Assembly: GCF_900110865.1 (NCBI RefSeq)
Contig: NZ_FOFD01000005.1
Span: 1-64,000 of the forward strand
Direction: 5' to 3'
Source of the DNA: Natrinema salaciae
GTDB lineage: Archaea > Halobacteriota > Halobacteria > Halobacteriales > Natrialbaceae
Length of the DNA: 64,000 nt
Shown here: in pieces, positions 9,182 to 22,475 of the stretch
Layout of the letters: the number at the start of each line of letters is the position of its first letter
Position numbering within the stretch: position 1 is the stretch's first letter
The notes under the pieces: generated by a model
The model's database searches: none
Told to the model about the DNA's origin: nothing
Seen by the model: only the letters and a program-made list of their open reading frames with translations
Program-made: the position numbers and the translations under genes

Positions 9182-10933
9182 ATGCGAGTCAGTATTTCCG
9201 ACGACGCGACCGAAGCACAGGCGCGAGCGATCGCCGAAGCCATGGCGTTGCAGTACCGTGACGACGTGACCGTCGTCACCGATGGCGGCGACGAACTCGG
9301 CAGCGCCTCCTACGACGGCAGCTCCGACACGACGCCGGGAACAGACCCGGACGACCTCGGGCCGACGGCCCGCGAGGAGGCACTGCGCGAGGAAATCGAC
9401 GACATCCTCGAGGGCGGCCCGGAGAAGTACAGGGAGCAACTCCCGGAGGAGGGGAAGCTATTCGTCCGCGACCGGCTCGACCTCTGGTTCGGTGACGACT
9501 TCCTCTTCGAGGACGGGAAATTCGCGGCGTTCGACGACTGGCACCCGAGCGGGTCGAACGTCGACGACGGGACCGACGACCGGCTCCCGGCCGACGGCCT
9601 GATCACGGGCGCCGCCGAGTTCGAGGGCCGTGACATTCACGTCATGGCCAACGACTACACGGTCAAGCGAGGCAGCATGGCCGCGAAAGGGGTCGAGAAG
9701 TTCCTGCGGATGCAACAGCGTGCCCTGAAGACGGGCAAGCCGGTGCTGTATCTGATGGACTCCTCGGGTGGCCGGATCGACCAGCAGACCGGGTTCTTCG
9801 CGAACCGCGAGGGCATCGGGAAGTACTACTACAATCACTCGATGCTTTCGGGACGCGTGCCACAGATCTGCGTGCTGTACGGCCCCTGTATCGCCGGGGC
9901 GGCCTACACGCCTATCTTCGCGGACTTTACCGTCATGGTCCGGGACGTGAGTGCGATGGCCATCGCCAGCCCGCGAATGGTCGAGATGGTCACCGGTGAG
10001 GAGATCGACCTCGAAGCGCTGGGCGGCCCGGACGTCCACGCACAGTACTCCGGAAGCGCGGACCTCGTCGCCGAAGACGAAGCGCACGCCCGGGAGCTCG
10101 TCGCGCAGCTCATCGGCTACCTGCCGAACAACAGCGACGAAACGCCGCCGCGAACCGACGGCCGGGCTCCCGCCAGTTCGCCGGCGGGCATCGACGCGAT
10201 CGTCCCGCAGGAGCCGAACAAGGGCTACGACATGTTCGACGTCATCGAGCGAGTCGTCGACGCCGGCTCGGTGCTCGAGTTGCGGCCGCAGTTCGGCCAG
10301 GAGATCATCACCGCCTTCGCCCGGATCGACGGCCGGCCGGTCGGGATCGTCGCCAACCAGCCCGCCCACCGCGCCGGTGCGATCTTCCCCGACGCAGCCG
10401 AGAAAGCGGCCCAGTTCATCTGGACCTGTGACGCGTACGACGTCCCGCTGCTGTACCTCTGTGACACGCCCGGTTTCATGGCCGGCTCACAGGTCGAGAA
10501 GGAGGGAATCCTCGAGCAGGGGAAGAAGATGATCTACGCCACCTCGTCCGCGACGGTTCCCAAACAGTCGGTCGTCGTCCGGAAAGCCTACGGGGCAGGT
10601 ATCTACGCGATGTCCGGTCCGGCCTACGACCCCGAGAGCGTCATCGGCCTCCCTTCGGGCGAGATCGCGATCATGGGGCCGGAGGCGGCGATCAACGCCG
10701 TCTACGCGCGCAAGCTCGCCGAAATCGACGACGAGGAGGAACGCGAGCGAACGGAACGGGAACTCCGGGAGGCGTACCGAGAGGACATCGACGTGCACCG
10801 AATGGCCAGCGAGGTCGTCGTCGACGAGATCGTTCCGCCGAGCTCGCTCCGCGAGGAGCTCACCGCCCGCTTTGCCTTCTACGAGACCGTCGAGAAGGAT
10901 CTCCCGGACAAGAAACACGGAACGATCCTCTGA
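9182..10933 (+). CDS. Acyl-CoA carboxylase carboxyltransferase chain with PccX-like N-terminal extension
   Basis: 583 residues, about 60 more than the usual 510-530. The carboxyltransferase core starts near residue 60 and shows both halves: YLMDSSGGRIDQQ and GPCIAGAAYTPIFADF in the N-lobe, then QFGQEIITAFARIDGRPVG, CDTPGFMAGSQVEKEGI and MSGPAYDPE in the C-lobe. Residues 1-32 (MRVSISDDATEAQARAIAEA and on) resemble the short 'acc operon protein'/PccX, normally encoded separately in haloarchaeal propionyl-CoA carboxylase loci (pattern I-x-D-D-A-x-E-x-x-x-A-I-A-x-A). It ends the operon-like run from 4444. The substrate could be propionyl-, methylcrotonyl- or geranyl-type CoA; the operon partners favour a branched or unsaturated acyl-CoA over acetyl-CoA. 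Confidence 0.9.
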   Translation: MRVSISDDATEAQARAIAEAMALQYRDDVTVVTDGGDELGSASYDGSSDTTPGTDPDDLGPTAREEALREEIDDILEGGPEKYREQLPEEGKLFVRDRLDLWFGDDFLFEDGKFAAFDDWHPSGSNVDDGTDDRLPADGLITGAAEFEGRDIHVMANDYTVKRGSMAAKGVEKFLRMQQRALKTGKPVLYLMDSSGGRIDQQTGFFANREGIGKYYYNHSMLSGRVPQICVLYGPCIAGAAYTPIFADFTVMVRDVSAMAIASPRMVEMVTGEEIDLEALGGPDVHAQYSGSADLVAEDEAHARELVAQLIGYLPNNSDETPPRTDGRAPASSPAGIDAIVPQEPNKGYDMFDVIERVVDAGSVLELRPQFGQEIITAFARIDGRPVGIVANQPAHRAGAIFPDAAEKAAQFIWTCDAYDVPLLYLCDTPGFMAGSQVEKEGILEQGKKMIYATSSATVPKQSVVVRKAYGAGIYAMSGPAYDPESVIGLPSGEIAIMGPEAAINAVYARKLAEIDDEEERERTERELREAYREDIDVHRMASEVVVDEIVPPSSLREELTARFAFYETVEKDLPDKKHGTIL

Positions 10934-13864: not shown

Positions 13865-16800
13865 CTACGTGCCGTCCTGGTCGTTCGACGCCGCTGTGAC
13901 TTGCCCGCCGTCGCTGGCCGTCGCGACGGCCGAACTGTCGCTCGGTGCGTCGAAGGAGACGTCCGGACCGAGATACTTCGTCCAGACGACGAGCAGGCTC
14001 GGGAGGACGAGCACGCTCGCGAGGAACGCGTAGATGATCGTCATCCCGGTGATGATCCCGAACTGCTGGAGCGGCGGGAGGATGGCGACGACGAGGACGC
14101 CGAAGCCGCCGACGGTCGTCGCAGCGCTGCCCAGTAGTGCGCCGCCAGTGCCGGTGACCGTCCGCGACATCGCTTCCCAGACCGACCCCGTCCGTTCCAG
14201 TTCCAGACTGTACCGTTCGCTCATGTGGATGCTGTAGGCGACGCCGAGCCCGACGGTGAGGCTCGTGATCATCCCCGTCATGACGTTGAAGGGGATCTCG
14301 AGCAGGGCCATCGTCCCGAGAATCCACGAGACGCTGAACACGACAGGGAGCAGCGTCACCGCGCCGAGCGTCGCGCTCCCCTTCGTGAGCCGATAGGCGA
14401 CCATCAGGAACACGAAGACGGCCACGAGCGTTATCAGCAGGCTCTCGATGACCGTGTCCATCAGTTGCTCCTGGACGATGTCGAACAGGATCGTCTGTCC
14501 GGTCGCGGTGGCCTCGAGCCCGTTCCCGTCGAGCCCGTCCGCGATAGCTTGCATCTCGGTCGTGACATCGCTCATCGCCGCGGCCCCGCTCGTCGAGACG
14601 ACCATCCGAACGGCCTCGTAGTCGCCGTCTTGGGTCCGGTGGATGACGCCGGCCGCCTCGTCGGGGGCGACGGCGAACAGCTCGTCGTACACCTGCTCGA
14701 CGTTCCGGTCGGGCACCCCGTCGCCGTCGGTGTCCGCCGCGGTGAGCGTCGCGTTGAACGACTCGTTCTCCGCGGCGACCCGTTGCATCGTCCGGAGCGG
14801 ACTCTGAACGTCGGCCTCGTCGCTCGAGAGGGGGACCGCGACGTCGCTGTCGGCGGCCTCGCGCTCGGCCTCGGAGAGCCGCCGTACCGTCTCGGGATCG
14901 GTTACGGTACCCTCGACGAGGATCTGCGCCTGGGAATCCTCACGGACGAAGTTCCGATTGACGAACGCGAGGTTCTCCTTCATCGAGTAGTCGCTGGGCT
15001 CGAGCGGGCCGGGAAGGGTGCTCGTCCACTCCGGGGGATCCTCCGCGATGAAATCCTCCTGATCGAAGCTGGTGTCTACCTGCGTCGCCCCGTACGCGCC
15101 GCCCGCGCTCACGAGGGCTGCGACGAGGATGACGACGATCGGAACCCGTCGCGCCGCCGTCGACCCGGTGGACAACAGCTGGCTGAACCGGCCACCGCCC
15201 GTTCCGAACGCCCGCTTGCGCCGATCGAAGCCGCGATTCTCGAGGCGTTCGTCCAGTTCGACCTTGAGAGCCGGAACCAGCGTTCCGAACACGAGCAGGG
15301 CTGCCGTGATGCCGACCGCGCTGACGATACCGAAGTCCTGAATCGGCGGCACCGGACTCGTGAGGTTCGAGAGGAATCCGATAGCCGTCGTCGCAGTCAC
15401 CAACACGAGGGCGATGCCGACGCCGGCCAGCGCCACCCGCATCGAGCCACGAGCGTCGTCATCGCCGTACGCACCACCGTGCTGGCGCTGCTCGCGGTGG
15501 CGCATGAAGATGTGGATCGCGTAGTCGATCGACAGCCCGATCAGGAGGACCGGGACCGCGATGAACATCTGGTTGAAGTCGATACCCGCCCAGCCCATGA
15601 AGCCGAACGTCCAGACGAGGACGGCGACGATACCGAACAGGCCGAGGAGGATGTCCAGCAGATCGCGGTACGCGACCAACAGGGCGACGACGACGAACAG
15701 CAGCGCGAGCGGACCGACGATCGCGAGGCTATCGCCCATCGAGTTCTCGATCTCCTGGCTCATGACTCCGCCGCCGAAGACGATGACCGACGATCCGTCT
15801 CCCGCGACGTCCTCGTTCGCGATGGACTGCATGGCCAGTTGCGCATCGACGACCGCGTCGGATGCCGTTCCGCCTCGACCGCCGCCACCCTCGCTCTGGT
15901 GTGTGACCATCAGCATCGTCGCGTTCGAACTCGTCGAACCCGCCTCGTAGTTCGTCGGCATGAACGCCAGCCCACTCAGCTGCCCGGCCGACTCCTCACC
16001 CAGGACGGTATCGAGCGCGCGTTCGTACTCGGTGGCGTTCATCGACTCGACCGCGTCGATCTGTTCCTGCAGCGTGGGCGACGTGGCGTTCTCCAGCGCC
16101 GCCTGCTGTTCCGCCAGCTGGCCGCCGAGTTCCTCGAGCCGATCGGCCTGTGACTCGAGGTCCTCGCTGCGCCGTTCGAGGTCCTGGTACTCGTCGGCGA
16201 GGACACCCTGCGTGCCGAGCCGGGAGGCCGCCGCGATCTGTGACTCGTTCTCGGCGTTTCTGCGGAGCTGCGCCGACTCGTTGAACGTCGCGTACTGCGT
16301 GTCGTCGAGTTCGACCGACGAGTTCGCGGCTACCGCATCGAACTGCGCCCGCGGCGATGCCGACGGCTCCTCGTGAAGCGTGTCGAGAGCCGCACGCAGC
16401 TCCCGTTGAGTCGCGTTCAGTTCCGCACGTCGTTCCTCCAACGCGCCACGTTCCTCCCGAACGGTCGCGTTCACCGCCTCGAACTCCGCAGCCGTCGCCG
16501 CTAACTCGCGCTGTTGCTCGCCGGTAATCGACGCGATCGCGAGGAGATTCGCGACGCCGATCGTCGGCCGGTCGTCGACGAGCGTCCGGTCGATCGTCTC
16601 GTTCTCCCGGAACGACTGTTGGAGCCGAAGAGTCTCGAGTTGCGAGTCCCGTGTGAGGACGTTGTCGCCCCGCACGATCACCTGAGCTACGGTCGTGTTG
16701 TTCGGGCCGGTCGAGAAGTTCGCTTCGACGTACTCCAGTTTCTCGGATTCCGTGGTATCGCTCTGGAACTGCCCGAGGTCCGACGACTGCTCGATCGTCC

Positions 16801-16900
16801 CGGCACCGGCACCCGCAACGACCGTGAGTACGAGCATGACAGCGATCACGGGTCGACTGTACGCCATAATCGTCTCGGCGAATCGATCGACCCAGCTCAT
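13865..16900 (-). CDS. RND superfamily (MMPL/HAE3-type) exporter
   Basis: 1011 residues. The layout is a tandem RND duplication: an N-terminal TM at about 15-35, a large extracellular domain (about 40-340) with a coiled-coil-like Glu/Ala/Arg-rich region (about 110-290), then a five-helix block ending in HIFMRHREQ, a second TM and loop (about 600-790) and a second five-helix block with ITSLTVGLGVAYSIHMSERY. The sterol-sensing-like VPVLLIGLSIDYAIHIFMRH contains the Asp typical of the proton relay. It would export lipids, hydrophobic compounds or drugs using the ion gradient. A perfect palindrome 283 bases upstream (17183-17200), related to two others near the TetR gene, suggests control by that repressor. 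Confidence 0.9.
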   Translation of the reverse strand: MSWVDRFAETIMAYSRPVIAVMLVLTVVAGAGAGTIEQSSDLGQFQSDTTESEKLEYVEANFSTGPNNTTVAQVIVRGDNVLTRDSQLETLRLQQSFRENETIDRTLVDDRPTIGVANLLAIASITGEQQRELAATAAEFEAVNATVREERGALEERRAELNATQRELRAALDTLHEEPSASPRAQFDAVAANSSVELDDTQYATFNESAQLRRNAENESQIAAASRLGTQGVLADEYQDLERRSEDLESQADRLEELGGQLAEQQAALENATSPTLQEQIDAVESMNATEYERALDTVLGEESAGQLSGLAFMPTNYEAGSTSSNATMLMVTHQSEGGGGRGGTASDAVVDAQLAMQSIANEDVAGDGSSVIVFGGGVMSQEIENSMGDSLAIVGPLALLFVVVALLVAYRDLLDILLGLFGIVAVLVWTFGFMGWAGIDFNQMFIAVPVLLIGLSIDYAIHIFMRHREQRQHGGAYGDDDARGSMRVALAGVGIALVLVTATTAIGFLSNLTSPVPPIQDFGIVSAVGITAALLVFGTLVPALKVELDERLENRGFDRRKRAFGTGGGRFSQLLSTGSTAARRVPIVVILVAALVSAGGAYGATQVDTSFDQEDFIAEDPPEWTSTLPGPLEPSDYSMKENLAFVNRNFVREDSQAQILVEGTVTDPETVRRLSEAEREAADSDVAVPLSSDEADVQSPLRTMQRVAAENESFNATLTAADTDGDGVPDRNVEQVYDELFAVAPDEAAGVIHRTQDGDYEAVRMVVSTSGAAAMSDVTTEMQAIADGLDGNGLEATATGQTILFDIVQEQLMDTVIESLLITLVAVFVFLMVAYRLTKGSATLGAVTLLPVVFSVSWILGTMALLEIPFNVMTGMITSLTVGLGVAYSIHMSERYSLELERTGSVWEAMSRTVTGTGGALLGSAATTVGGFGVLVVAILPPLQQFGIITGMTIIYAFLASVLVLPSLLVVWTKYLGPDVSFDAPSDSSAVATASDGGQVTAASNDQDGT

Positions 16901-17182
16901 GCGTCGAACCGGCCTCCACGAGCACCGTCCGCGTCCGTTTCACTCGAGCGGGGCGGAAGACCGGCATCGAACCGACAGGGCGATACAGCGATCGACAGTC
17001 GTGGATTCGCCGCCGGACTCATCGCCACCCACTCCGTCGAGACGCTCGTTCGTCTCGAGCGTTCCGGTGAGCGATTCGCGGCCGTCTCGATCCTGTGCGC
17101 TGCGATAGACGAGCGGACCCGACGGATTCGTCCGGAGGGAATCCCGTTTCGGCAGTTCGTTTCAGTTCGGCAACCATCACTG

Positions 17183-17200
17183 ACTGACTAATTAGTCAGT
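17183..17200. promoter_or_regulatory. Perfect 18-bp palindrome, candidate TetR operator 1
   Basis: ACTGACTAATTAGTCAGT equals its own reverse complement. It shares the half-site pattern ACT(A/G)A-N4-TTAGT with 17529-17542 and 18784-18797, all within 1.6 kb around one TetR gene. It lies in the divergent region upstream of the RND exporter. Confidence 0.65.
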
Positions 17201-17528
17201 ACACATCAACCTTTTCACTGCAGCCCGCAGTAGCGTGGCTACGCGTCGAAACGAGGGACAGAACGCGTCGATACGGGCTGATCGTTCAGTCAATTCTGTA
17301 CCGGGAACACGAATACGGTACGGGAAATTGAACCGCTACAGGCCCGAATCGGGCGCGGATCACCGCCGAGAGGACCGATAACGTCGACCAGAGGTCCACC
17401 GTGGACGACCCCGAAGAGACCCCCGACTTCACGCGGCACTCGTCGAGCTTCGAGCACAGGCGGCTCACGACGGAGATTTCCGGGAGTATCTCACCCTGTT
17501 CGATTCGACGAAGCGAAGACTTATGCCT

Positions 17529-17542
17529 ACTAATCAGTTAGT
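17529..17542. promoter_or_regulatory. Candidate TetR operator 2
   Basis: ACTAATCAGTTAGT, an inverted repeat ACTAA/TTAGT with a 4-bp spacer. It differs at a single base from the site at 18784-18797. It occupies the space between a TATA-like ACTTATG (17519-17525) and the ATG at 17549, where a bound repressor would block a leaderless transcript. Confidence 0.65.
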
Positions 17543-17548
17543 TAGAAT

Positions 17549-17986
17549 ATGGCCCAGTCGAACTCCCGGAAGCGACCGTGGCTCGCAGCGCTGCTGGCAG
17601 TCCTCGTCACCGGCCTCGGACACCTGTATCTCCGCCGATGGCGTCGCGCGCTCGGGTGGCTCGCGAGTTCGTTTCTCGTCACCGTCCTGTTCGTCGATCC
17701 GGCGGCGGTCGACGAACTTTCGACTGGAGCCCCGAGCCTCGAGACGCTACTCACGGCCGCGCCGATGCTCGTCGTCGCGGGACTCAGTACCCTCGACGCG
17801 TACGTGCTCGCTCGCGCCCGCCACTCGAGCGCGAGCGCAACCGCCCTCCCGTCCGACGCGGCCGACGACGCGTTCGCCTGTCCCCACTGCGGCAAGGCCC
17901 TCGATCCCGAACTCGAGTTCTGTCACTGGTGCACACGCTCCGTCGCGGACGCCGAACCGAACCGCGAGTCGACGAACAACGAGTGA
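17549..17986 (+). CDS. Zinc-ribbon membrane protein
   Basis: 145 residues. A basic start (QSNSRKRPW) precedes one or two TM helices (about 11-30 and 35-52), a third hydrophobic segment lies at about 68-88, and the cytosolic C-terminus carries a treble-clef style zinc ribbon CPHCGKALDPELEFCHWC (about 112-129) with four cysteines. The N-terminal WLAALLAVLVTGLGHLYLRRWRRALGW resembles the TM2/DUF-type small membrane domain in haloarchaeal proteins. The function is unknown. An operator candidate overlaps its promoter, placing it with the RND exporter and the TetR gene in one proposed regulon, so a role in envelope stress or export is a reasonable guess. Confidence 0.8.
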   Translation: MAQSNSRKRPWLAALLAVLVTGLGHLYLRRWRRALGWLASSFLVTVLFVDPAAVDELSTGAPSLETLLTAAPMLVVAGLSTLDAYVLARARHSSASATALPSDAADDAFACPHCGKALDPELEFCHWCTRSVADAEPNRESTNNE

Positions 17987-18036
17987 CGACTGCCGACTGA
18001 CGCCGTCCGCTCGCGTATCGGCGCTGCGGCTCCACG

Positions 18037-18636
18037 TCAATCGCCGTCCAGCAGGACGTGACTCACGTACTCGGCGGCGGCCCGTCTCGCCGTCGGGAGC
18101 GCGCGCTCCTCGTCGAAGACGACCGCTCGAGTCCGGGCCCCGTCCACGAGCGTCATGAGTGTTCGCGCCACGTGTTCGGCGTCGACGGGCTCGAACGTGC
18201 CCGACTCGATCCCTTGTTCGATCACCGTGCGAAGCAGGTAGCGGACGTACTCGTCGTTCTCTCGGAAGCGCTCGCGGAACCGTTCCTTGTACGGTGCCTG
18301 ACTCCGCATCTCGAGTATGGCGACGAGCAGGTCCACGTGGTCCTCGGCGTCGACGAGCAGTTTGTCGAGTAACAGCTCGAGTCGCTGCTCGGGATCGGTC
18401 GTCTCCACCTCGTGGACGGTGTCTTTGAACCGATCGAGGACGAAGTCCAGAAACGCCGCAAGCAGGTCCTCCTTCGTCTCGTAGTGGTAGTGGATCGCCG
18501 CCGTCGATTTGCCGTACTCGTCGGCGATCCGCTGAATCGTGAGATCCGCGTACCCGTGCTCGCGAAGCGCCCGGTAGGTCGCTCGCATGATCTCCTCGTT
18601 TGGATCGGCATCCCTCTCGTTCGGCGAGTCCGCCAT
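18037..18636 (-). CDS. TetR/AcrR family transcriptional regulator
   Basis: 199 residues, a typical TetR length. The N-terminal DNA-binding domain (about 15-65) reads MRATYRALREHGYADLTIQR followed by IADEYGKSTAAIHYHYETKE, the classical TetR helix-turn-helix with the Y-H-Y ending. The remainder is the helical ligand-binding and dimerisation domain, including the haloarchaeal-type QRLELLLDKLLVDAEDHVDL segment. It is flanked by the zinc-ribbon membrane gene and a polyprenyl-synthetase-like gene, and three similar palindromes occur nearby. Autorepression plus repression of the exporter is the simplest model. Confidence 0.9.
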   Translation of the reverse strand: MADSPNERDADPNEEIMRATYRALREHGYADLTIQRIADEYGKSTAAIHYHYETKEDLLAAFLDFVLDRFKDTVHEVETTDPEQRLELLLDKLLVDAEDHVDLLVAILEMRSQAPYKERFRERFRENDEYVRYLLRTVIEQGIESGTFEPVDAEHVARTLMTLVDGARTRAVVFDEERALPTARRAAAEYVSHVLLDGD

Positions 18637-19016
18637 CGTCTCGGTAGTTACACGGCCGACTGATAACGGTTTTGACCTGCTCGTCAGGATAGAGTACGTC
18701 GCCGTCTGGCGAGTGGCTGTACCGCGGGTCGATACAGCAATTCAAACCACTTAGCGCGACGATCTCGTTTCCGAACGTTTTTGACTGATCAGTTAGTAAG
18801 CTCGATATCGAGATGGATGGCGACACGACGGACGATCGGTTGCGTGCGACGCGCCGAGTACCGTGTAGATACGGACACGCGGACACGCGGAGACGCATCC
18901 CGGTAACTCGGCCGAGGGGCCGTGCTAGTGGGAACCCGTCGCGTCGTCGACGCCCCGTTCGACGGGCTCGACGAGTTCGATCGAGGTCTGACGCCACCAC
19001 TACGGACGACTGAGAG
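18637..19016. other. Intergenic region between TetR and polyprenyl-synthetase-like gene
   Basis: About 380 bases. It holds operator candidate 3 (18784-18797) and, on the minus strand, a TATA-like CGTTATCA about 30 bases before the TetR ATG. A 66-codon Arg-rich plus-strand ORF starting at 18813 looks like a GC artefact and is not annotated as a gene. Confidence 0.4.
18784..18797. promoter_or_regulatory. Candidate TetR operator 3
   Basis: ACTGATCAGTTAGT; the first ten bases form the perfect palindrome ACTGATCAGT, and the whole site matches the operator at 17529-17542 at 13 of 14 bases. It lies between the TetR gene and the divergent polyprenyl-synthetase-like gene, so it could serve either or both. 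Confidence 0.6.
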
Positions 19017-19838
19017 ATGATCCAAGACTACTCGCTCGACGACCGACGCGCGGAAATCGGCACCCGCCTCGAGACGGCGCTCGACGCCGCGACCGGCGCG
19101 TATCTGACGCCCGCTCGAGCGGCCGTGTTCGAATCGGACGATCGCTGGTACGGACAGCTCGCCGCGTGCAGTTACGCAGCCGTGGCCGGGACGTCCGACG
19201 ACGAGGCGGCGCTTCGAGCGGCGACGGCGATGGAACTGCTTCGCGGCTATCATCGCCTCCGCGGGCGATTGCTGGGCGGTCTCGCCGAAACGACCCCGGT
19301 GGGGCTGGAATCCGATGCCGCCCTATTGGCCTCGGACTACCTCTACACGACCGCGTACTCGAGGCTCGCCGGCCTCGACGAGGCGGACAATAAGGCCGGA
19401 GCGGCTATCCGGAGGCTCGCCAGCGTCTCGGCGGCGATGATCGAAACGTACGCGAATTCCGACGCCCGGTCGTCCACGCCGCCGTCGGTCTCCGTGTCGT
19501 TCGTCGACGGGACGGCGGGTGCGCTCGGTGCCGGTGCGGCCGCGATCGGTGCGACGCTGGCGGGCACCGACGACCGTCACACGGACCGCTTCGCCACGGT
19601 GGGACGCGGGTTCAGTACGAGCCGCCGGATCCACCGCACCCTCGACGGAGACGACGACGTATCGGCCGCTGGATCGGCGGGCCTCGACGACCGACGGCTC
19701 CGGCAGCACGCTCGACGGCATCGCCACGACGCCCGCCGCGCGCTCCGGACGCTCTCGGCCGCCGTATCCGTCGAGCCGCTCACGGCGTTCCTCGAGGCGC
19801 GCCTCCCCGATGGGGTGGCGGATAGCGTACGGGAGTGA
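19017..19838 (+). CDS. Degenerate polyprenyl-synthetase-like protein
   Basis: 273 residues. The all-helical prenyltransferase fold can be traced: AATAMELLRGYHRLRGRLLG corresponds to the helix with the first Asp-rich motif, and LLASDYLYTTAYSRLAGLDE to the 'L-x-GDYL' helix of geranylgeranyl diphosphate synthases. The catalytic first DDxxD motif is missing (RLRGRLLG stands in its place) and no second DDxxD is seen, so chain-elongation activity is unlikely. A Gly/Ala-rich segment (about 160-185) replaces the usual catalytic centre. Such non-catalytic homologues could act as regulatory or structural partners of a true synthase. It may be under the TetR regulator through site 18784-18797; that is inference. 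Confidence 0.7.
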   Translation: MIQDYSLDDRRAEIGTRLETALDAATGAYLTPARAAVFESDDRWYGQLAACSYAAVAGTSDDEAALRAATAMELLRGYHRLRGRLLGGLAETTPVGLESDAALLASDYLYTTAYSRLAGLDEADNKAGAAIRRLASVSAAMIETYANSDARSSTPPSVSVSFVDGTAGALGAGAAAIGATLAGTDDRHTDRFATVGRGFSTSRRIHRTLDGDDDVSAAGSAGLDDRRLRQHARRHRHDARRALRTLSAAVSVEPLTAFLEARLPDGVADSVRE

Positions 19839-20658: not shown

Positions 20659-20907
20659 ATGAGAGACACAGGCACGCTAGATACGAGACCCATCGAAGCG
20701 GTCCGAGACGACCTCGAGACCGATCCCGAAATCGTCGTCATCGATACCGGCACCGGGACGCCGGAAACCGCCTTCGAGACGACGGCCGTTGCCGAACTTC
20801 GGGACAACCCCGACGACGACACCGAGGTCGACGTCACGTGGGACGACACGGCGAGTGAAACGAACAAGATGCGGAAGGTCGAACTCAGAAACCAGCTCCT
20901 CGAATGA
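20659..20907 (+). CDS. Small acidic protein in carboxyltransferase operon
   Basis: 82 residues, overlapping the carboxyltransferase start by 4 bases (ATGA), so coupled translation is likely. A TATA-like CTTATCAAA at about 20627-20635 gives leaderless spacing. The sequence (PEIVVIDTGTGTPETAFETT in the middle, MRKVELRNQLLE at the end) is not obviously like PccX, the small subunit of haloarchaeal propionyl-CoA carboxylase, but occupies the place where such a subunit would be expected. I infer an accessory or assembly subunit; no family recognised. Confidence 0.6.
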   Translation: MRDTGTLDTRPIEAVRDDLETDPEIVVIDTGTGTPETAFETTAVAELRDNPDDDTEVDVTWDDTASETNKMRKVELRNQLLE

Positions 20908-22475
20908 CCGACGATACTCCTTTCGAGAACGTCGCAGAGGCGAAACGGACACTTTCGGACGACGCGCGTGAAGACGCAGTCGAATATCAACACGAACTCG
21001 GCAAGTTGACCGCTCGAGAACGCATCGACTACCTCCTCGACGACGGGACGTTCGACGAGATCGGCCGTCTCGCTTCGCCGATGCCGACCACCCCCGAAAC
21101 GACCGACTGGGAGCGAAGCGACGCGCCGGCAGACGGCGTGATTACGGGATTCGGGACGATCGACGGTCGAGAGGTAGCCGTGTTCGCGACCGACTTCACG
21201 GTCAAAGGCGGATCGATCGGGCACGCCGGCGGTCGGAAGATGAAGCGAGTCTCCGAACGCGCGCTGGACCGGGGGCTCCCGCTGATCATGCTCCACGACG
21301 GTGGCGGCCATCGAATTCAGGAGGGACTCGATGCAGCGCCGTTCGCTCGAGGAGACAACGGGTTCTCGAAGCTACAGACGACGCTGTCAGGGTGGGTCCC
21401 TGTCGTCTCAGCGATGATGGGGCCGGCCTTCGCGGCGCCAACGAACTTCGCGGCGCTCTCGGACTTCGTCCCCATCGTCGACGGAACGGGGACGATGGGC
21501 GTCGCCGGCCCCTCGCTCGTGAAAGCGGCGCTCGGCGTCGACGGGAGTAAGGACGAACTCGGCAGTGCGCGTTTCCAGACGAGCGAGACCGGAATGGCGG
21601 ACGTCGCGTGCGAGGACGACGAAGCCTGTCTCGACGCGGTTCGGACGTTCCTCTCGTATCTCCCGCGAAACGCCAGACGGGACCCACCGACGACGGATCC
21701 GGAACCGCCGGCCGATGCGGCCGTCGAGCGATTGCGCGAAATTATTCCCGCGAGCCCACGGAAGGGGTACGATATCTACGCGATTATCGACGGGATCGTC
21801 GACCGGAACTCGACGTTCGAACTCAAACCGACCTACGCTCGGAACATCGTCACGACGTTCGCGCGACTCGACGGGAGACCGATCGGCGTTATCGCCAACA
21901 ACCCGCGGTTCAAAGCCGGAACGATCGATACCGCGGCCTCGGAGAAGGCGTCCCACTTCGCATCGCTGTGTGACGCGTACGGACTCCCGATCGTCACCTT
22001 GACCGACGTTCCCGGGATCCTGCCCGGTCCGGACTCGGAACAGGAGGGGATCGCCCGTCACTCGGCGAAACTGCCGTTCGAGTTGGCGCGGGCGACGGTG
22101 CCGATCGCGAACGTCGTTCTCCGTCGCGGATACGGGTTCGGCTACGTCGCGATGGGCGGCGGACGGTCGCTCGACTCCGAACTGACGGTGTTGTGGCCGA
22201 CCGCCGAACTCGCGGCGATGGGTATCGAAGGTGCCGTCGACATCGCCTACGGACACGAGATCGACTCGGCGGACGATCCGGAATCCCGCCGACAGGAGTT
22301 GATCGACACGTTCGAATCGCGGACCGACGCGGTCCGCGCTGCGACCCGCGTCGGCATCGACGGTGTCGTTCAACCGGAGCAGACCCGTGATCGAATCCGT
22401 CGGGCGTTCGAGCGCGCGACCGAACCACACGATCCCGACTGGCCCCCGAAAAAGCATCCGATCAATCCCATCTGA
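20904..22475 (+). CDS. Acyl-CoA carboxylase carboxyltransferase chain (second copy)
   Basis: 523 residues, the standard length. The N-lobe shows GKLTARERIDYLLDDGTFDE, the FTVKGGSIGHAGGRKMKRV segment and LIMLHDGGGHRIQEGLDAAP; the C-lobe shows ARLDGRPIGVIANNPRFKAG, TDVPGILPGPDSEQEGIARH and RRGYGFGYVAMGGGRS. It transfers carboxyl from biotin to an acyl-CoA. Unlike the copy at 9182-10933 it has no N-terminal extension. No biotin carboxylase gene is next to it; it must use an alpha chain encoded elsewhere, for example at 7404-9176. Downstream lie the remains of an enoyl-CoA hydratase and an IclR regulator gene, so this looks like the intact head of a decaying catabolic operon. Confidence 0.9.
   Translation: MTDDTPFENVAEAKRTLSDDAREDAVEYQHELGKLTARERIDYLLDDGTFDEIGRLASPMPTTPETTDWERSDAPADGVITGFGTIDGREVAVFATDFTVKGGSIGHAGGRKMKRVSERALDRGLPLIMLHDGGGHRIQEGLDAAPFARGDNGFSKLQTTLSGWVPVVSAMMGPAFAAPTNFAALSDFVPIVDGTGTMGVAGPSLVKAALGVDGSKDELGSARFQTSETGMADVACEDDEACLDAVRTFLSYLPRNARRDPPTTDPEPPADAAVERLREIIPASPRKGYDIYAIIDGIVDRNSTFELKPTYARNIVTTFARLDGRPIGVIANNPRFKAGTIDTAASEKASHFASLCDAYGLPIVTLTDVPGILPGPDSEQEGIARHSAKLPFELARATVPIANVVLRRGYGFGYVAMGGGRSLDSELTVLWPTAELAAMGIEGAVDIAYGHEIDSADDPESRRQELIDTFESRTDAVRAATRVGIDGVVQPEQTRDRIRRAFERATEPHDPDWPPKKHPINPI

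Follow-up and report, generated by a model that had tools for sequence, protein, structure and literature searches.

Putative TetR operators in a reduced haloarchaeal efflux island

Genes and palindromes at the locus

The window, by which we mean the whole 64-kb stretch of Natrinema salaciae DNA that was analysed, holds a small island of genes and related palindromes with the following features.

13865-16900, minus strand: RND-superfamily exporter of the MMPL type (Pfam PF03176, E 1e-42, in two stretches)
17183-17200, unstranded: site 1, ACTGACTAATTAGTCAGT, a perfect 18-bp palindrome; putative operator upstream of the RND/MMPL gene
17277-17290, unstranded: possible weak fourth site, GCTGATCGTTCAGT, with one mismatch, between sites 1 and 2
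17325-17519, plus strand: TetR3 relic, a pseudogene fragment that preserves residues 75-137 of a third TetR and lies between the first two sites
17529-17542, plus strand: site 2, ACTAATCAGTTAGT; putative operator of the zinc-ribbon membrane gene
17549-17986, plus strand: small membrane protein with a C-terminal zinc ribbon (DUF7575; Pfam PF24460, E 1.1e-13)
18037-18636, minus strand: TetR1, with TetR_N and TetR_C_6 (BetI-type C-terminal) domains; the only intact island TetR in the window
18784-18797, plus strand: site 3, ACTGATCAGTTAGT, in the context TTTTTGACTGATCAGTTAGTAAG; putative operator of a divergent tetR2-MATE-prenyl-synthase-like promoter
18813-18884, plus strand: TetR2 relic, the first 24 codons (MDGDTTDDRLRATRRVPCRYGHAD), aligned from the start codon
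19017-19838, plus strand: prenyl-synthase-like protein, with the fold present and both aspartate-rich motifs missing

An earlier note on this DNA had described three related palindromes, and all three are present. Site 1 is perfect over its 18 bp, as that note had it, and comprises two overlapping 14-mer registers four bases apart (17183-17196 and 17187-17200). The 14-mers of sites 2 and 3 do differ at a single base; their flanks are palindromic and their centres are not. Shuffling led us to expect 0.02 matches to ACTRANNNNTTAGT in the window, where the three sites were found, and a pattern search of the whole 4.86 Mb genome returned these three only, so that the strict pattern is not equally frequent elsewhere. 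Genome matches to a looser symmetric form, ACTRANYRNTYAGT, were also confined to sites 1-3. Its reversed control was equally frequent in this genome (4 versus 4), so this count is weak by itself, and the argument is carried by clustering and conservation. Moreover, ACTRANNNNTTAGT was derived from the window sites themselves, and independent evidence from other genomes therefore weighs more. Such evidence is of three kinds: conservation beside orthologues in other genera, a footprint obtained from alignment alone, and a weight matrix made without the window.

The matrix, built solely from sites of other genomes, returned the three sites as the top matches in the 64 kb (33.5, 30.5 and 22.1 bits, site 1 scoring 33.5). 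The weak site at 17277-17290 came next at 11.4, and no unrelated match scored above 0. A generic repeat search of positions 16900-19020 recovered sites 1-3 as its first three-copy family; the other repeat families in this interval look like chance matches. Scans for sigma-70 promoters and terminators gave nothing above shuffled sequence, as expected for archaea. A small open reading frame on the minus strand, whose ATG lies just after site 1 (16901-17182), has 52 codons in the window, 11 in the Natrinema relative L288 and other lengths elsewhere, and is probably not coding given that its length is not conserved.

TetR1 has the domain make-up of the TetR family, a TetR_N helix-turn-helix (PF00440, E 1.3e-10) followed by a helical ligand domain (PF13977, E 2.1e-19). 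We rejected its assignment as the BetI choline regulator, since it scored 60.6 bits against the equivalog model TIGR03384, which has a curated cut-off of 201.3. Orthologues of 55-82% identity were found in 40 other genomes of the order, and PDB entry 3crj (E 2.4e-83) is a near-orthologue with a crystal structure.

Conservation and promoter geometry among haloarchaea

Comparison with related genomes, one of the checks that the earlier note had proposed, bore the pattern out. Among TetR1 orthologues at loci fetched by name, ACTNANNNNTNAGT occurred within 230 bp upstream in 66 of 77, as compared to 11 of 3850 shuffled regions (0.3%). It usually lies 130-165 bp ahead of TetR1, within CTTTTGACTRACYRGTYAGTAAGT; an exact upstream site was absent in the remaining 11 orthologues. 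The other check, alignment of the intergenic regions, was made on 75 regions without using the pattern, and its strongest 14-nt block fell at 18784-18797, averaging 1.4 bits per base where the median was 0.33. Among genomes of the genus, those with TetR1 had on average 5.6 matches to ACTRANYRNTYAGT and those without it 2.5 (one-sided p = 1e-4), whereas the reversed pattern showed no difference (2.2 versus 1.9).

The palindrome also accompanies other TetRs. In 24 of 39 paralogues, most of them 41-50% identical, it lies at -32 to +8 of the paralogue's own start, and a MATE pump then follows in 13 of those 24. This suggests an operator type of the subfamily and not a private signal of TetR1. Throughout, the symmetric halves ACTNA...TNAGT are kept while the centre varies; site 1 itself differs in its centre from the sequence at the equivalent place in relatives. 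Its position relative to the RND start is similar in several loci (about 280 nt in the window, L119, L076/L191 and L290) and closer in L288 (160 nt).

At sites 2 and 3 alike, a TATA-like element precedes the palindrome and a start codon follows it, a placement that fits repression by promoter occlusion. Site 2 falls between a TATA-like CTTATG (17519-17524) and the ATG of the zinc-ribbon gene at 17549. This gene adjoins TetR1 in many relatives, and 21 of 32 orthologues have a site at -20 to -24, again between TATA-like element and start codon. The conserved promoter block of TetR1 itself (18661-18677) overlaps no operator, so simple autorepression is not supported, and TetR1 may be made steadily.

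The order of genes in L288 is RND - site - TetR3 - site - zinc ribbon - TetR1 - site - TetR2 - MATE - prenyl-synthase-like, and in relatives TetR3 adjoins site 1 and TetR2 adjoins site 3. In the window, both of these regulators are reduced to remnants. The TetR3 relic gave a profile match of 29.7 bits (E 1.6e-10) and a tblastn match of 60.7% over 28 aa, and the TetR2 relic a profile match of 10.8 bits (E 5.6e-05), where the best of 2000 shuffles reached 4.6 bits. The MATE gene is missing altogether. Read against these relatives, the window preserves a larger, widely conserved island in a decayed and reduced state, with all three putative island operators kept. The locus thus offers an example of candidate operators outliving the regulators that once stood beside them.

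Exporters and the prenyl-synthase-like protein

In most relatives, site 3 is followed by a divergent TetR2, then MATE, often then the prenyl-synthase-like gene; in loci without TetR2, MATE often comes directly after site 3. Of the 79 named loci, 58 have MATE under the divergent promoter. Halobacterium salinarum (L142), a laboratory strain, has the order TetR1-site-MATE. These loci, like the RND gene with site 1, show the arrangement of a TetR-controlled efflux system, with the regulator adjoining the exporter and the palindrome inside the exporter promoter. Conservation and promoter geometry strongly support the core idea of the earlier note, an exporter linked to TetR operators, but the usual target among other haloarchaea is MATE and not RND.

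The RND protein matched the HAE3 model TIGR00921 (E 2e-78) at a score under the curated cut-off, so we do not assign it to that subfamily. Its gene is accompanied by site 1 in the window and in the Natrinema relatives L119, L191 and L288, where site 1 adjoins the third TetR. Beyond Natrinema, a site lies about 50 nt before the RND gene of Halorhabdus salina (L134), and in L125 an RND gene follows downstream of a site and MATE, with the same operator type. At other loci with an RND orthologue, no site was present within 1.5 kb in 28 of 29. The inclusion of RND in the proposed regulon, as the earlier note had it, finds some backing in Natrinema, L134 and L125, but it is patchy.

The protein encoded at 19017-19838 gave no Pfam match on its own. 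A profile of its family matched polyprenyl synthetases in the PDB (3nf2, E 3.2e-11), and 15 of 22 family members matched PF00348 weakly. The AlphaFold model (pLDDT 85) matched GGPP and FPP synthases with E-values down to 6.5e-07, and Foldseek comparison with these enzymes (probability 1.00, TM-score about 0.7) identified the all-helical isoprenoid synthase fold. None of the 22 members has a DDxxD-type motif at either aligned position, so they lack what marks a catalytic polyprenyl synthetase. The description of this gene product as a prenyl-type protein thus holds for its fold. With both aspartate-rich motifs missing, the protein is probably no prenyl-lipid enzyme: a role in prenyl-lipid synthesis is unlikely, a pseudoenzyme likely, and a binding role possible. 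Proteins of this type are widespread in haloarchaea and are encoded in MATE operons.

The gene stands last in the efflux operon of relatives, and in several Natrinema it lies directly after site 3. In the window, 220 nt separate site 3 from its start, with the TetR2 relic between them. Having lost tetR2 and MATE, the window leaves site 3 to reach this gene only through a relic leader.

A putative efflux regulon and its alternatives

Taken together, the palindromes are very probably TetR operators, and we are confident, from the comparative evidence above, in reading them as the operators through which a haloarchaeal TetR subfamily controls efflux genes, retained here in a reduced island. The operator consensus would be about TKACTRAYYRRTYAGTMA. 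A TetR dimer, here most likely TetR1, would block the promoter by binding downstream of the TATA-like element, in the interval up to the start codon or transcription start, and a ligand, probably a pump substrate or a lipophilic compound of the cell envelope, would release it. TetR1 would now serve all three sites, and the two registers of site 1 might take two dimers. Sites 1 and 3 may, however, have been bound mainly by TetR3 and TetR2, respectively, and could now be relics too. A further operon likely belongs to the same regulon: another contig of this genome (G000:C1:1061681-1063797; L255, L269) carries a tetR2-like-MATE operon whose operator has one mismatch (ACTGACTGGCCAGT on one strand, within the consensus TTTTG...TAAGT context).

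The caveat can be extended to a rather unlikely account in which sites 1 and 3 are orphan operators of the lost TetR3 and TetR2, and TetR1 controls the zinc-ribbon gene only, or a chromosomal TetR2-like protein reads the orphaned sites. The placement of these sites beside TetR3 and TetR2 in relatives, the decay of both regulators in the window, and the chromosomal tetR2-like-MATE operon all fit this account. It is less easily squared with the retention of site 3 in relatives that have TetR1 but no TetR2 (L077, L289, L291 and several Halorubrum), with the top score of site 1 under a matrix derived from TetR1-linked sites, or with the near identity of sites 2 and 3. That no regulator reads the palindromes, and that they represent core-promoter sequence or symmetry arising by chance in A+T-rich DNA, we regard as extremely improbable. 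The sites do adjoin TATA-like elements in promoters, where A+T content is high, and the reversed-pattern control was also found a few times per genome; yet the TATA-like element forms a conserved block of its own, upstream of the palindrome, the symmetric halves are preserved around a variable centre, and the palindrome goes with a single TetR subfamily.

The earlier note had suggested one regulon for the RND exporter, the zinc-ribbon membrane protein and a prenyl-lipid-type protein, which we take here as functional and as reaching into prenyl-lipid synthesis. Every one of these genes has an upstream site in the window, and the Natrinema loci with the prenyl-synthase-like gene immediately after site 3 would also suit such a grouping. 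We nevertheless consider it quite improbable in that form, given a prenyl-synthase-like family without aspartate-rich motifs in all 22 members, the relic-filled distance from site 3 to this gene, its place at the close of an efflux operon in relatives, and the patchy link to RND. An elaboration of the efflux reading, in which TetR1, TetR2 and TetR3 read one operator type as a layered switch for several ligands and the prenyl-synthase-like protein acts as a non-enzymatic, isoprenoid-binding partner of the pump or repressor, is speculative and we think it unlikely.

In the efflux reading that we favor, the regulon appears to be of a known kind, TetR-controlled efflux, in an apparently unstudied archaeal form. 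TetR repressors of multidrug efflux pumps of the AcrR, TtgR and QacR type have a palindromic operator in the promoter of the adjacent exporter or of their own gene. The window TetR shares with them the TetR_N DNA-binding domain and a palindromic operator, putative in our case. The haloarchaeal form differs in placing the putative operator downstream of a TATA-like element and ahead of a near-leaderless start, in having several paralogous TetRs with one operator type per island, and in its targets, MATE and MMPL-type RND pumps. TetR-family efflux-pump repressors are treated in PMC3511530. An archaeal TetR-family regulator is also known in FadR of Sulfolobus acidocaldarius, which regulates fatty-acid metabolism and not efflux (PMC6449355).

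Multidrug efflux control in archaea is little studied. According to the searched passages of PMC11721430, MATE-2898 of Halorubrum amylolyticum CSM52 lowered the accumulation of Hoechst dye and exports Hoechst when expressed in E. coli; these passages mention no TetR regulator, operon or promoter. All seven MATE-2898 residues given there (F72, I75, S76, M79, F300, I304 and R308) occur, with the same numbers, in the MATE under the putative operator in H. amylolyticum ZC67 (L124). On these seven residues, and not on a deposited sequence, the two are probably the same gene. The closest sequences to 3CRJ in our set are the Haloarcula loci L032 and L033, both with a site and MATE. Our literature search returned nothing direct on TetR1, its motif or the function of 3CRJ, nor a paper on the TetR1-type TetR-MATE pairing, and the papers found name no target of 3CRJ. 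The present analysis thus proposes an operator and targets for a regulator family with a solved structure but no assigned function, and ties this family to a pump that is probably an experimentally active archaeal MATE multidrug exporter, as described in those passages.

Some observations concern the wider setting of the island. The TetR1 island occurs twice on one contig of N. hispanicum (L080, L082), and TetR1 is plasmid-borne in several species (L075, L078, L079, L085, L145), suggesting that the island may move between replicons. In the window, it is flanked by acyl-CoA carboxylase beta-type genes at 9182-10933 and 20904-22475, the latter directly preceded by an 82-aa open reading frame. 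The gene at 9182-10933, a methyltransferase gene and a MaoC-like gene are also found near TetR1 in N. thermotolerans (L076).
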